Assembly (NCBI GenBank): GCA_944332435.1
Contig: CALVJW010000001.1
Span: forward strand, 80,370 to 113,721
Origin: an uncultured Bacilli bacterium
Lineage (GTDB): Bacteria > Bacillota_I > Bacilli_A > RF39 > UBA660
DNA: 33,352 nt
Direction: 5' to 3'
Positions within the stretch are counted from its first letter, which is position 1. Each line of letters opens with the position of its first letter. The notes under the pieces were generated by a model that was not told the origin of the DNA, ran no database searches, and saw only the letters and a program-made list of their open reading frames with translations. Shown here piece by piece: positions 15,210 to 31,729 of this stretch. Made by a program: the position numbers and the translations under genes.

Positions 15210-15234
15210 AGAAATCAATGTTGATTTCTTTTTT
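15208..15234 (+). terminator. Terminator of ABC unit 2
   Basis: AAAGAAATCA (15208-15217) pairs with TGATTTCTTT (15222-15231) around a 4-base loop, followed by further T residues. Confidence 0.85.
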
Positions 15235-15240
15235 ATAGTG

Positions 15241-15269
15241 TTTACATTCCAATCGAGTTATAGTATGAT
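15241..15269 (+). promoter_or_regulatory. Promoter of the RSH-like hydrolase gene
   Basis: TTTACA (15241-15246), a 17-base spacer and TATGAT (15264-15269), starting 7 bases after the unit-2 terminator. Confidence 0.7.
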
Positions 15270-15297
15270 AGTAGGTAATATTTAGGTGGTGACGTGT

Positions 15298-16737
15298 ATG
15301 GATATTGCAACATTATTAGTAGAATTAGAGCGATATATCGCAAGTGCAGAAGAATTGTCACTTGTGAAAGTGGCATTTCAAATTGCCAGTTTAGCACATC
15401 AAAAGCAACGGCGTGAAAGTGGAGAACCATATATTACTCATCCTTTAGAAGTTGCTCATATTCTAGTTTCTATGCATCAAGATACTGATACAATTTGTGC
15501 GGGCTTATTACACGATGTGATTGAAGATACCGATTACACGAAAGAATCTTTATTGAAAGAGTTGCAATATTTGCACGGTTATTCTTTTTCGGATGAGCGT
15601 TATCAAAATATTATTCATTTAGTAGATGGAGTAACAAAAGTTAAACAAGAAAATTATGATACGAAAATTATTAAGGCAACATTAGAAGATGAAAGAATTA
15701 TTATGATAAAATTAGCCGATCGACTACATAATATGCGAACATTACAATTTAAAAAAGATAAAGCAAAGAGAAAGAAAATTGCCTTAAAAACTTTTAATCA
15801 ATTTGTTCCTTGGGCCAAATATTTAGGCGCTTATAAAATTAAATATGAATTAGAAGATTTATGTTTTCAAATATTATCGCCAGATATTTATCAAAAATTA
15901 AAACAATTTCAATCGGTTATTTATGAAACAGCAATATTGGACTTAAATCAGAGAATGAAAGAATTAGACCATGTTTTTTTAGAAAAACAAATTTATTATT
16001 ATCCTAAAGTAAAAGATGTTTATGGCATTTATAAATCGGGATATCCACCACTAGATACTGATCAAAAGAAACAGATTACAGAAGAAATGCTTACAGACGA
16101 GACCGTATTAAAAAATGTTTATCAAAACTATAAAACGATTCCAGAATTAGTACAATTAAAAATCATTGTTGATACCAAAGAAGATTGTTATGAAATCGGT
16201 GATTACTTATCAAAACAAAATGCGTTTTCATTACTACCAAATACTTATTATGACTATATTCAATATCCAAAAAAGAATATGTATCAATCACTTGATTTTA
16301 TCTTAAATGAACTTTGGTTACCAATTCAATATCAAATCAGAACCAATCAAATGGATTTAAAAAATTGTTATGGTAATTTATATCATGAAGATACGAAAAA
16401 TAAAATTGATTTTGTAAGCCGTTTACAAAAATTAATTGATGCCTGTTCGAATGATGCTGAAATATTAAACTGTTTTAAAAAATTAGCAACAACAAAAATT
16501 TGTGTGACGACATTATCAGGAGAGAAAATTTTAATGGATCCTGGGAATACTGTTACTGATTTTGCAGCACGCATTGCATCTACTTTACCAGAACGGATGA
16601 ACCAAGCATATGTAAACGGGGTAGCAGTTAGAAAAGACTATGTATTAGAAGATGGAGATGTTGTTGTAATTAAAACAAAAGAATTAGAATCAACCAAGAA
16701 TATCAATGTTGGGTATCAAAAACAAAAAGTGGACTAG
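15298..16737 (+). CDS. RelA/SpoT homologue with intact (p)ppGpp hydrolase and degenerate synthetase domain
   Basis: A 479-residue RSH paralogue. The HD hydrolase domain (about 1-190) keeps the expected residues: R39, H48 in GEPYITHP, H72-D73 and E76-D77 in LLHDVIEDT, and D141/N145 in KLADRLHNMRTL. The synthetase region (about 225-360) keeps the fold signature (YPKKNMYQSLDF, QYQIRT) but not the active site. Compared with the complete Rel at 29558, GRAKSIYSIYKK has become PKVKDVYGIYKS, the YDLYALR segment is PELVQLK, and the Glu of FEIQIRT is Gln (Q344). A TGS domain follows (about 399-462); the zinc-finger/CC and ACT regions are absent. It probably breaks down (p)ppGpp but cannot make it (inference). 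The ATG at 15298 follows AGGTGGTGA; a GTG at 15286 overlaps that site. Confidence 0.88.
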   Translation: MDIATLLVELERYIASAEELSLVKVAFQIASLAHQKQRRESGEPYITHPLEVAHILVSMHQDTDTICAGLLHDVIEDTDYTKESLLKELQYLHGYSFSDERYQNIIHLVDGVTKVKQENYDTKIIKATLEDERIIMIKLADRLHNMRTLQFKKDKAKRKKIALKTFNQFVPWAKYLGAYKIKYELEDLCFQILSPDIYQKLKQFQSVIYETAILDLNQRMKELDHVFLEKQIYYYPKVKDVYGIYKSGYPPLDTDQKKQITEEMLTDETVLKNVYQNYKTIPELVQLKIIVDTKEDCYEIGDYLSKQNAFSLLPNTYYDYIQYPKKNMYQSLDFILNELWLPIQYQIRTNQMDLKNCYGNLYHEDTKNKIDFVSRLQKLIDACSNDAEILNCFKKLATTKICVTTLSGEKILMDPGNTVTDFAARIASTLPERMNQAYVNGVAVRKDYVLEDGDVVVIKTKELESTKNINVGYQKQKVD

Positions 16738-16763
16738 AAAAAGAAATCGAATGATTTCTTTTT
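16738..16763. terminator. Bidirectional terminator between the RSH-like gene and sua5
   Basis: AAAAAGAAATC (16738-16748) pairs with GATTTCTTTTT (16753-16763), loop GAAT. T-rich on both strands, it serves both convergent genes. Confidence 0.85.
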
Positions 16764-17787
16764 ATTTTTCTATATAATGATAACTAGTAGAACGGATTAG
16801 GCGATTCATAATTGCAATACCAAGCCCTTCCTTTTTTACTCCTTCAATAATAATAAAATCAGGATGCATGCGATCTACTTCACGAAGTAGGGTAAAGATA
16901 TTATGAGAGATTTCATCATAATTATGGATACTACCGTGTACGTAAAATTGGTCACATTGAATCTTACTTTGATGTTCTTTAAAACCGATAACAATGGTAT
17001 TATCTTTCATATTTTGATTTACTAAGTCAATTTGTACTTCTTCGTTATCACTATAAACAAGTAAGCATGCAGCATTAGGTGCATAATGTTTATATTTCAT
17101 TCCTGGACTTTCTACTTTTCCTGTAGCTTTTTTAAAAATATGTTCATCGATTTTCACTGTTCCAACGACTTCTTTAATATCTTCTGGAGTGATTTTTCCA
17201 GGTCTTAAAATAGTTGGAATTCCATCGATTACTTTTACAACCGTCGATTCAATTCCAATTTTCGTTTCTCCACCATCGATAATCGCACTCACTTTTCCGT
17301 CAAATTCGTCTACGATATCGCTTACTTTTGTACCACTAGGGCGACTCGATAAATTCGCACTCGGAGCTGCGATTGGAAGCTTTGCAGCTTTAATTAATTC
17401 ATGCGCAATCTTATCTTCTGGCATACGAATTCCCACTGTATCAAGACCAGCCGATACATTATCTGGAATACAGTTTTTCTTTTTTAAAATCAAAGTAAAA
17501 GGACCAGGCATAAAAGCATCAATTAAAGCTTGTTCCATTTCATTTGGCTCTTCCGTGATTTCTTTTAAATCATCAAAATCAGCAATATGGACAATCAGTG
17601 GATTATCATTGGCTCTTCCTTTGGCGATAAAAATATCGTCAACTGCTTTTGGATTAAACGCATTTGCCCCAATTCCATAAACCGTTTCAGTTGGAAAAAT
17701 AACTAATTTTCCTTCTTTTAAAAAAGTCGCTGCTTCTTGTAATTCCCTTTTATTTATTTCTGTTTTAAAATTATAATATTTTGTCAT
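16762..17787 (-). CDS. sua5: L-threonylcarbamoyladenylate synthase, Sua5 type
   Basis: Makes threonylcarbamoyl-AMP from threonine, bicarbonate and ATP for the t6A modification at position 37 of ANN-decoding tRNAs. It has 341 residues. The YrdC domain (about 1-205) shows FPTETVYGIGANAF, IFIAKGRANDNPLIVHI, PGPFTLIL, VGIRMPED, APSANLSSRPSGT and ESTVVKV. The C-terminal Sua5 domain (about 215-341) begins after LRPGKIT and includes SPGMKYKHYAPNA, with the end segment GLGIAIMNRL. So this is the long Sua5 form rather than the short TsaC. The ATG at 17787 follows AGGTGAG on the minus strand; a GTG three codons upstream overlaps that site. Single gene with its own promoter, divergent from the XRE regulator. 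Confidence 0.95.
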   Translation of the reverse strand: MTKYYNFKTEINKRELQEAATFLKEGKLVIFPTETVYGIGANAFNPKAVDDIFIAKGRANDNPLIVHIADFDDLKEITEEPNEMEQALIDAFMPGPFTLILKKKNCIPDNVSAGLDTVGIRMPEDKIAHELIKAAKLPIAAPSANLSSRPSGTKVSDIVDEFDGKVSAIIDGGETKIGIESTVVKVIDGIPTILRPGKITPEDIKEVVGTVKIDEHIFKKATGKVESPGMKYKHYAPNAACLLVYSDNEEVQIDLVNQNMKDNTIVIGFKEHQSKIQCDQFYVHGSIHNYDEISHNIFTLLREVDRMHPDFIIIEGVKKEGLGIAIMNRLIRSTSYHYIEK

Positions 17788-17806
17788 ACATCTCACCTAA
17801 TTTGCT

Positions 17807-29557: not shown

Positions 29558-31729
29558 TTGACAAAAGTAAATATGAATTTAAAATATGATGATTTAGTAA
29601 ATAAAATAAAAACTTATATCCATGACGAGAAGGAATTAAAAAAGATTGATGAGGCATATCAATATGCGCTTCTTTCTCACGCAGGAGAAAAGCGTTTAAC
29701 GGGTGATCCTTATATTGGGCACCCTTTAAACGTTGCGTATATTTTAACAGATATGAATGCTGATAGTAATACGATTTGTGCGGGGTTAATGCATGATTTA
29801 TTAGAAGATGGACATCATACAAAAGAAGAACTAAGAGAAAAATTTGGAGATGATATTACTAATTTGATTGATGGTATCACAGTGATTAATCGTTTGAATT
29901 TTTCTGGTGACAAACAATCTGTGATTGCGAATCATCGTAAAATCCTAGTTGGTTTATCAGAGGATGTTCGTGTAATATTTATTAAATTGGCCGATCGTTT
30001 GCACAATATGCGAACACTTTGGGTACATCCAGAACATGTTCAAAAAGAAAAAGCCAAAGAAACATTAGACATTTTAACACCGATTGCTCATCGACTTGGA
30101 ATGAGTCATATTAAAGGAGAATTAGAAGATTTATGTCTTCGTTATTTAAAACCAGATGTTTATTTTTCTATTGTAGAACAGTTGAATCAAACGAAAAATG
30201 AACGAGAACATTTTGTTGATGAAATGAAAGAAAGTGTTTCAGAATTATTAAATAAAGAAGGAATTAAACATGAAATTAAAGGGCGAGCAAAAAGTATTTA
30301 TAGTATCTATAAAAAACTAGATAAAGGGAAAACTTTTAGTAATATTTACGATTTATATGCTCTTCGTGTTTATGTCGACAAAAAAGAAGAATGTTATCAA
30401 GCACTTGGAATTATTCACTCAAAATATCGACCAATGCCCAAACGTTTTAAAGATTATATTGCTATGCCTAAAACAAATATGTATCAATCTTTACATACAA
30501 CAGTATTTGGGATTCATGAACGTTTATTTGAAATCCAGATCCGTACTTACGAAATGGATGAAATTGCAGAAAATGGAATTGCTTCACATTGGTCTTATAA
30601 AGAATCAGGTAGTGGAGTAAAAGCTAGTTTACAAAATGCAATGGAACAAAAATTACAATTTTTTAAATCCATTATTGAGTTAAAAGATGAATTAACAAAT
30701 GATGAAGAATTTGTTAATTCTGTAACAAAAGAAATATTGAACAATAATGTTTATGTATTTACACCAAATGGAGATGTCATTGAACTTCCTTCTGGTTCTA
30801 CGCCAATTGATTTTGCTTATCGTGTACACTCTAACGTTGGAGATCATATGGTTGGAGCGATTGTAAATGATAATATCGTACCATTAGATTATGTATTACA
30901 AAATAATGATATTGTAAAAATTAACACGAATAAAAATTCTGTTGGGCCTTCTAAAGAATGGTTAAATATTGCGTTTACAACACAAGCAAAAAATAAAATT
31001 CGTTCTTTCTTTAATAAAATTGATAAGCAAGAATACCAAAAAAGAGGAGAAGAAATTTTAAATAAAGAATTACGAAAAAGAAAAGTTGGGTTTAATGAAT
31101 TTTTCTCAAGCGAGAATGTAGAAACTTTGTTGTCAGAATTAAAATGTGAAACATTAGAAGAAATTTTTATGAATGTAGGAAATGGAAAATTTCCAGTTGG
31201 TTCTGTAATGAACATTATTTATTCTGAAACGGAAACAAAAGAGGATTTAATCTTAAAACGAACACAAAACAAAGAAATCAAATTGCCAACGATTAAAACT
31301 GATGTAATTGTAGAAGGAATTAGTGACATTAAAGTCAATGTGGCAAGTTGTTGTAAGCCAGTTCCCGGAGATGATATTATCGGTTATATTACTAAGGGTA
31401 GTGGAATTACTGTACATCGAATGATTTGCCCTAATATAATTGAAGAACATGAGCGAATTATTCCCGTTCATTGGAATCATCAAATATTAAAAAAATATCC
31501 AACAAGTATCTTAGTTGAAGCAAGAAAAGAAAAAAATACATTATTAGATATTATTTCAAAAACAAGTAATCATGATATTGTTGTAGAAGGAATTAAAACA
31601 TTAAAAAGTAGTGACAATGACTTATATGAAATAACGGTTGTCGTAACCCATTTAGATGTTTTAAAGAAATTTATGAATGATATTGATATGATTCCGAATA
31701 TTATAAAAGTAGAAAGGATGATTCAGTAA
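29558..31729 (+). CDS. rel: Bifunctional (p)ppGpp synthetase/hydrolase Rel
   Basis: A full-length long RSH enzyme, 723 residues from the TTG. The hydrolase domain has R46, H55 (PYIGHP), H79-D80 (LMHDLLED) and KLADRLHNMRTL. The synthetase domain keeps the GRAKSIYSIYKK loop, YDLYALRV, DYIAMPKTNMYQSLHT and FEIQIRTYEMDEIAE with its catalytic Glu. TGS follows at about 385-450, the conserved CC motif (VASCCKPVPGDDIIGY) at about 600, and an ACT domain at the end (about 645-723). So it should sense starved ribosomes and both make and break (p)ppGpp. The TTG start uses GGAG ten bases upstream; an ATG at 29573 would remove five residues and has no good ribosome-binding site. In B. subtilis recJ and apt lie between secDF and rel; they are absent here. 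The stop overlaps dtd. Confidence 0.95.
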   Translation: MTKVNMNLKYDDLVNKIKTYIHDEKELKKIDEAYQYALLSHAGEKRLTGDPYIGHPLNVAYILTDMNADSNTICAGLMHDLLEDGHHTKEELREKFGDDITNLIDGITVINRLNFSGDKQSVIANHRKILVGLSEDVRVIFIKLADRLHNMRTLWVHPEHVQKEKAKETLDILTPIAHRLGMSHIKGELEDLCLRYLKPDVYFSIVEQLNQTKNEREHFVDEMKESVSELLNKEGIKHEIKGRAKSIYSIYKKLDKGKTFSNIYDLYALRVYVDKKEECYQALGIIHSKYRPMPKRFKDYIAMPKTNMYQSLHTTVFGIHERLFEIQIRTYEMDEIAENGIASHWSYKESGSGVKASLQNAMEQKLQFFKSIIELKDELTNDEEFVNSVTKEILNNNVYVFTPNGDVIELPSGSTPIDFAYRVHSNVGDHMVGAIVNDNIVPLDYVLQNNDIVKINTNKNSVGPSKEWLNIAFTTQAKNKIRSFFNKIDKQEYQKRGEEILNKELRKRKVGFNEFFSSENVETLLSELKCETLEEIFMNVGNGKFPVGSVMNIIYSETETKEDLILKRTQNKEIKLPTIKTDVIVEGISDIKVNVASCCKPVPGDDIIGYITKGSGITVHRMICPNIIEEHERIIPVHWNHQILKKYPTSILVEARKEKNTLLDIISKTSNHDIVVEGIKTLKSSDNDLYEITVVVTHLDVLKKFMNDIDMIPNIIKVERMIQ

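Follow-up and report, generated by a model that had tools for sequence, protein, structure and literature searches.

Two RSH genes, both on the plus strand, lie in the 33,352-nt stretch of uncultured Bacilli DNA analysed here (the window), and the shorter of them very probably encodes a paralogue of this lineage's Rel, which has turned into a dedicated (p)ppGpp 3'-pyrophosphohydrolase, built separately from SpoT. The evidence for this reading comes from the sequence: the residues of the hydrolase (HD) domain are kept, those of the synthetase (SYNTH) domain are lost, the gene has a single origin from Rel and it is under purifying selection. In the mechanism that we infer, the HD domain would remove pyrophosphate from (p)ppGpp, and the SYNTH domain would be a pseudo-enzyme that transfers no pyrophosphate and serves as a scaffold holding the HD domain, probably together with the TGS domain, as in Acinetobacter SpoT. 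The protein would not be driven by starved ribosomes and would lower the alarmone independently of the ribosome, opposing the synthetase of the long Rel. The first-pass annotation had already proposed a dedicated long hydrolase, SpoT-like in logic and convergently built, and the retained HD domain, the lost catalytic Glu, the purifying selection and the placement in a clade apart from E. coli SpoT make this proposal highly plausible. The features on which the analysis draws are collected in Table 1.

Table 1. Features of the two RSH genes and their surroundings, in window coordinates.
Feature	Position	Strand	Basis
Terminator-like, A/T-rich repeat of the type AGAAATCAA-at-TTGATTTCT with T run, 3' of the upstream gene	15210..15234	+	read by eye
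Promoter-like TTTACA-17-TATGAT, between upstream repeat and short RSH start	15241..15269	+	best match in region; match number not clearly above shuffles
Short RSH paralogue, proposed hydrolase-only (HD, pseudo-SYNTH, TGS; 479 aa)	15298..16737	+	ORF and Pfam
HD (hydrolase) domain, residues 26-177	15373..15828	+	HD_4 PF13328, E 4e-25
R39 (R44 of B. subtilis Rel)	15412..15414	+	alignment
H48 (H53 of B. subtilis Rel), metal ligand	15439..15441	+	alignment
H72-D73..E76-D77 (H77-D78..E81-D82 of B. subtilis Rel)	15511..15528	+	alignment
HD insertion, ~12 residues, limits approximate; only window genome and congener	15565..15606	+	alignment
Site of 10-residue deletion, HD alpha6-alpha7 stretch; only window genome and congener	15640..15666	+	alignment
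D141..N145 (D144, N148 of B. subtilis Rel)	15718..15732	+	alignment
ATP-loop remnant PKVKDVYGIYKS; R241 deleted, S247 to G	16003..16038	+	alignment
Pseudo-SYNTH insertion, ~24 residues, lineage-specific; low pLDDT at 251-258	16039..16119	+	alignment and model
Pseudo-SYNTH core, residues 276-359	16123..16374	+	RelA_SpoT PF04607, 44 bits (weak; long Rel 137)
PELVQLK; D264 to E, R269 to K	16141..16161	+	alignment
Q344, at the position of E324 in B. subtilis Rel and E335 in E. coli RelA; catalytic Glu gone	16327..16329	+	alignment
TGS domain, residues 401-460	16498..16677	+	PF02824, E 1e-10
A427, where Rel has the TGS His in contact with the tRNA CCA end	16576..16578	+	alignment
AGAAATC-gaat-GATTTCT with A/T runs, putative bidirectional terminator between short RSH and convergent gene	16742..16769	.	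read by eye
Long Rel, 723 aa, HD-SYNTH-TGS-AH/RIS-ACT, both catalytic sites intact	29558..31729	+	domains and residue alignment

The ATG at 15298 is preferred over a mechanically assigned GTG at 15286 as the start of the short RSH gene, because a Shine-Dalgarno-like AGGTGGTGA (15284-15292) precedes it. Since the gene is flanked by A/T-rich inverted repeats with T runs and has a promoter-like sequence of its own, it is probably transcribed alone. A terminator scanner that requires G-C pairs reported none at the A/T-rich repeats on either side, and a search for RNA families across the window returned none. The convergent neighbor (16762-17796, minus strand) presumably encodes a look-alike of the Sua5/YwlC-type tRNA threonylcarbamoyl enzymes, as recognized from its translation, and a Sua5/YwlC-like gene also adjoins the short RSH of a congener (L033).

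All eight residues of the hydrolase pocket align with those of B. subtilis Rel, and the set is as complete as the first-pass annotation had stated. In A. baumannii SpoT, the TGS and Core clamp the HD alpha6-alpha7 motif in the hydrolysing position (PMC9974481). In the window lineage this stretch carries a deletion, immediately preceded by the HD insertion, and the short RSH of this lineage may be held in the hydrolysing state with less regulation. The same two changes count against a dedicated hydrolase, as they could alter its substrate or activity.

Loss of the key synthetase residues had also been claimed and is borne out by the alignment. Compared with the SYNTH domain of B. subtilis Rel, R241 falls within a two-residue deletion and S247, D264, R269, H312 and E324 are replaced by G, E, K, D and Q, respectively; K243, K304, N306 and Y308 (B. 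subtilis Rel numbering) are retained. In Streptococcus Rel, the adenine is sandwiched by R241 and R269, the catalytic acids being D264 and E323 (PMC7983052). The E335Q variant of E. coli RelA, which carries the same Glu-to-Gln replacement as the window protein, is in use as a synthetase-dead control in laboratory work (PMC7400157, PMC4432633).

The TGS domain is kept and the CC and ACT regions are gone, again in line with the earlier reading: the protein ends about 19 residues past the TGS domain, and a Pfam search of its 479 residues gave no AH/RIS and no ACT domain, the helical and CC regions being likewise absent. Because these helical, CC and ACT regions are missing and the window lineage has no CCA-reading TGS His, the short RSH is expected to be free of control by starved ribosomes. 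HD and SYNTH domains occur in one chain, as in long RSHs, with both PF13328 and PF04607 above cut-off, and TIGR00691 matches below its cut-off (261 versus 499 bits). Identity as a bifunctional Rel[HS] was rejected, as R241, D264, R269 and E324 are deleted, E, K and Q and the helical, CC and ACT regions are absent. Identity as a small alarmone hydrolase was rejected as well, since such proteins consist of an HD domain only and the short RSH also possesses a pseudo-SYNTH and a TGS domain.

An AlphaFold model of the short RSH, computed from an 18-sequence alignment (mean pLDDT 79), found its best PDB matches by Foldseek in full-length A. baumannii SpoT (E 1.5e-23) and B. subtilis Rel (2.5e-23). 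The Moraxellaceae SpoT[Hs], for example A. baumannii SpoT (SpoT_Ab; PDB 7qpr), resembles the short RSH in being derived from Rel, in keeping the HD and TGS domains, in having a pseudo-SYNTH domain without catalytic and adenine-binding residues and in the loss of the TGS tRNA histidine, which is S407 in SpoT_Ab and A427 in the short RSH (PMC9974481). The sequence hallmarks of SpoT[Hs], taken as a functional kind, are an intact set of HD residues and the loss of synthetase catalytic residues, and the short RSH shows both. However, SpoT_Ab is full length and its HD domain is tuned by HEL, ZFD and RRM, whereas the short RSH ends after the TGS domain; the partner of SpoT_Ab is a synthetase-only RelA, that of the window's short RSH an intact Rel; and the short RSH stems from a separate duplication, in Bacilli, with its Glu changed to Gln. 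Hydrolysis by SpoT_Ab is sharply lowered when TGS and HEL are removed (PMC9974481), and the short RSH, which is without HEL, is in this respect less easily seen as a dedicated hydrolase. RshC, described from six Bacillus strains as [HS], with both domains conserved, and as confined to Bacillus (Atkinson et al. 2011, PMC3153485), is likewise a second RSH of Bacilli that is cut in the helical domain and consists of HD, SYNTH and TGS without CC or ACT. By this published description, its SYNTH domain is conserved and that of the short RSH is not. Bifunctional Rel (B. subtilis, 6yxa, and the long Rel of the window), the ancestral protein, shares the HD residues and the domain order up to TGS but differs in its intact synthetase and ribosome-binding C-terminal domains. 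The small alarmone hydrolases (Mesh1, RelH, paSpo and others) are also hydrolases without synthetase function, yet they are lone HD domains, whereas the short RSH keeps its pseudo-SYNTH and TGS domains. Thus, a hydrolase-only RSH (Moraxellaceae SpoT) and an RSH cut after TGS (Bacillus RshC) were already known; judged from sequence, the combination of both would be new, as would its independent emergence in Bacilli, its distribution across one family and possibly a parallel RelA/SpoT split.

A survey of the GTDB family to which the window genome belongs, covering 145 genomes in which RSHs were then catalogued with a synthetase profile, revealed a second RSH of roughly 480 aa in many of them. 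The second RSH of the window is real, but it is not peculiar to this genome, being a family-wide paralogue of which 67 distinct copies from 63 genomes were aligned. The HD octet is complete in 66 of the 67 (D82E in the remaining one), Glu324 is lost in all 66 copies readable at this position (63 Q, 2 K, 1 R) and R269 is lost in 65/67. The pattern of a dead synthetase and an intact HD domain recurs in these 67 homologues and is thus not due to chance. Erosion is less advanced across the clade as a whole than in the window protein, as D264 is retained in 64/67; the guanine-site residues K304, N306 and Y308 are retained in 64-66 of 67 and the TGS His in 34/67. In the 133 long Rels of the family, the listed synthetase residues, including Glu324 and R269, are invariant except for S247G in seven. 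The order of conservation is HD (.58) > SYNTH (.52) > TGS (.44) in the short RSHs and the opposite in the family's long Rels, SYNTH (.73) > TGS (.70) > HD (.49). Two copies of the short RSH occur in each of three genomes (L012/L034 in G027, L016/L039 in G066 and L017/L060 in G028). Among some 470 genomes of the class, no short paralogue was recognizable outside the family, and nearly all carried a single full-length Rel, Rels cut by contig ends aside; all genomes listed in the class and "phylum" samples belong to the same class, none exceeds 3.6 Mb and Bacillus itself may be unsampled. Literature searches for RSHs with "RF39" or "Erysipelotrichia" found no papers.

These family-wide residues bear on two further explanations. 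A protein that is still bifunctional, with a weak synthetase of altered site, could be argued from the retention of D264 in most copies, but Glu324 is lost in every readable one and the window protein is also without R241, D264 and R269, so that we regard this as very improbable. It is also distinctly unlikely that the protein is a regulatory pseudo-enzyme, quiet at both sites, that works through binding to Rel, to the ribosome or to a guanine nucleotide: the conserved guanine-site residues and the strong constraint on the pseudo-SYNTH domain would fit such a role, but the invariant HD catalytic set is more than binding alone requires and the ribosome-binding C-terminal region is absent.

Phylogenetic analysis points to a single origin of the short RSHs. 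In a tree of 57 sequences they form one clade (support 100/97), with which a tree of 82 rows agrees; the family's long Rels form another (99/97), and both together a third (100/99), outside of which lie other Bacilli Rels, B. subtilis Rel, E. coli SpoT and E. coli RelA. Given that the short RSHs cluster together next to the family's Rel as their sister group, with E. coli SpoT elsewhere in the tree, they are assigned on the basis of the trees to one lineage-specific Rel duplication near the family base, separate from the duplication that made SpoT. Identity with the SpoT of beta/gamma-proteobacteria was rejected on the same grounds, as the short RSH joins the Rel of its own family (100/99) and E. 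coli SpoT falls outside. Within the family, the distribution is patchy, requiring 41 changes on the Rel tree, which is hardly better than shuffled. Transfer within the family is suggested by some short RSHs that share 82-88% identity although the Rels of the same genomes share only about 55%; misbinned contigs are an alternative. No sign of mobile carriage was found: all matches to phages and plasmids were distant, below 60% identity. The neighbors are varied: across 41 short RSH loci no conserved operon, defence island or toxin-like neighbor was observed, the commonest neighbors being the aminoacyl-tRNA synthetase family (6/41 loci) and Obg (4/41).

The ratio dN/dS between the short RSH of the window and that of the congener is 0.10 overall (HD 0.12, linker/SYNTH 0.07, TGS 0.08), compared with 0.03 for Rel in the same pair, indicating that the short RSH is under purifying selection. 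The constraint on the pseudo-SYNTH domain (0.07) argues that it serves something other than catalysis. A functionless, decaying duplicate is thereby extremely improbable: a few copies are broken by stop codons (L042 in G054, L046 in G089), and the short RSHs of the window and the congener sit on a long branch within the clade, but the low dN/dS and an HD domain invariant across the clade speak against decay.

Small alarmone synthetases, a search for which the first-pass annotation had recommended, were found neither in the window genome (943-kb assembly, 66% complete) nor in the congener G075 (94% complete). The synthetase-family profile gave two matches per genome, and in the window genome these are the short RSH and Rel. 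Elsewhere in the family, an apparent tandem small synthetase was observed in a 439-aa open frame adjoining Rel, with two consecutive RelA_SpoT domains (L225; G123:C16), and a RelA_SpoT domain (55 bits) lies within a 939-aa open frame at G038:C2:4404-4742. The short RSH might clear (pp)pApp or pGpp, or neutralize a toxic small alarmone synthetase as a guard, instead of setting the general (p)ppGpp level. Its patchy spread and apparent horizontal movement are accessory-like, and Foldseek also gave a weak match to a (p)ppApp hydrolase. By hand tally, however, small synthetases occur in 17/62 genomes with and 18/71 without the short RSH (p 0.84), the residues are those of a ppGpp-hydrolysing Rel and no toxin-like neighbor is conserved, so that this explanation is unlikely as well.

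The preferred reading, a dedicated (p)ppGpp hydrolase, has to be seen alongside the long Rel, which, as had been pointed out, is a full Rel encoded 14 kb away. As this Rel still looks bifunctional, the short RSH adds a hydrolase and does not replace that of Rel. A further hydrolase is therefore not obviously needed in the window genome, which counts against the preferred reading. Among the 133 family genomes with a long Rel, the HD octet is changed in at least one residue in 68 and a metal ligand in 54, often from HD to HE. Several genera appear to pair a synthetase-only-looking Rel with a hydrolase-only-looking short RSH, which is the RelA/SpoT arrangement; the window genome lies outside this group, as its own Rel keeps an intact HD domain. 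Among the long Rels in which the hydrolase site has changed (for example from HD to HE) and the synthetase is untouched, as in RelA, are L095, L105, L180, L181, L216 and L220. The presence of the short RSH does not significantly track these changes, neither for the HD octet (36/61 versus 32/72, Fisher p 0.12) nor for the metal ligands (29/61 versus 25/72, p 0.16) nor in phylogenetically independent pairs, which weighs against a dedicated hydrolase, and the explanation that the short RSH exists because Rel lost its hydrolase was not established by so weak an association. Another HD_4 protein is present in about 13 of the 31 genomes that combine a changed Rel HD domain with the absence of a short RSH. 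None was detected in the rest (G012, G026, G037, G038 and others), where gaps in the assemblies or remaining HD activity may be the explanation. Further candidate alarmone hydrolases are proteins of ~445-453 aa that recur in the family (L324-L329, L341) and carry a Mesh1-like HD_4 domain at the N terminus.

In most discussions, the RelA/SpoT split figures as a proteobacterial event. A tentative scenario, somewhat short of probable, is that an independent RelA/SpoT division took place in this family, in which a Rel duplicate became hydrolase-only and the long Rel of many genera then lost its hydrolase site, the window lineage being an intermediate; the pseudo-SYNTH domain, with its guanine-binding residues kept in most members, may then be a nucleotide sensor that sets hydrolysis. 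From its sequences, an uncultured Bacilli lineage seems to have evolved its own dedicated alarm-off enzyme. If a hydrolase-only RSH arose a second time, independently, in Bacilli, the 67 natural short RSHs and dozens of partner Rels in varied states of hydrolase decay would form a comparative series on the division of a two-way enzyme. Such a series would bear on why a dead synthetase domain is kept and on how an off-switch without ribosome control alters the stringent response in small-genome bacteria.
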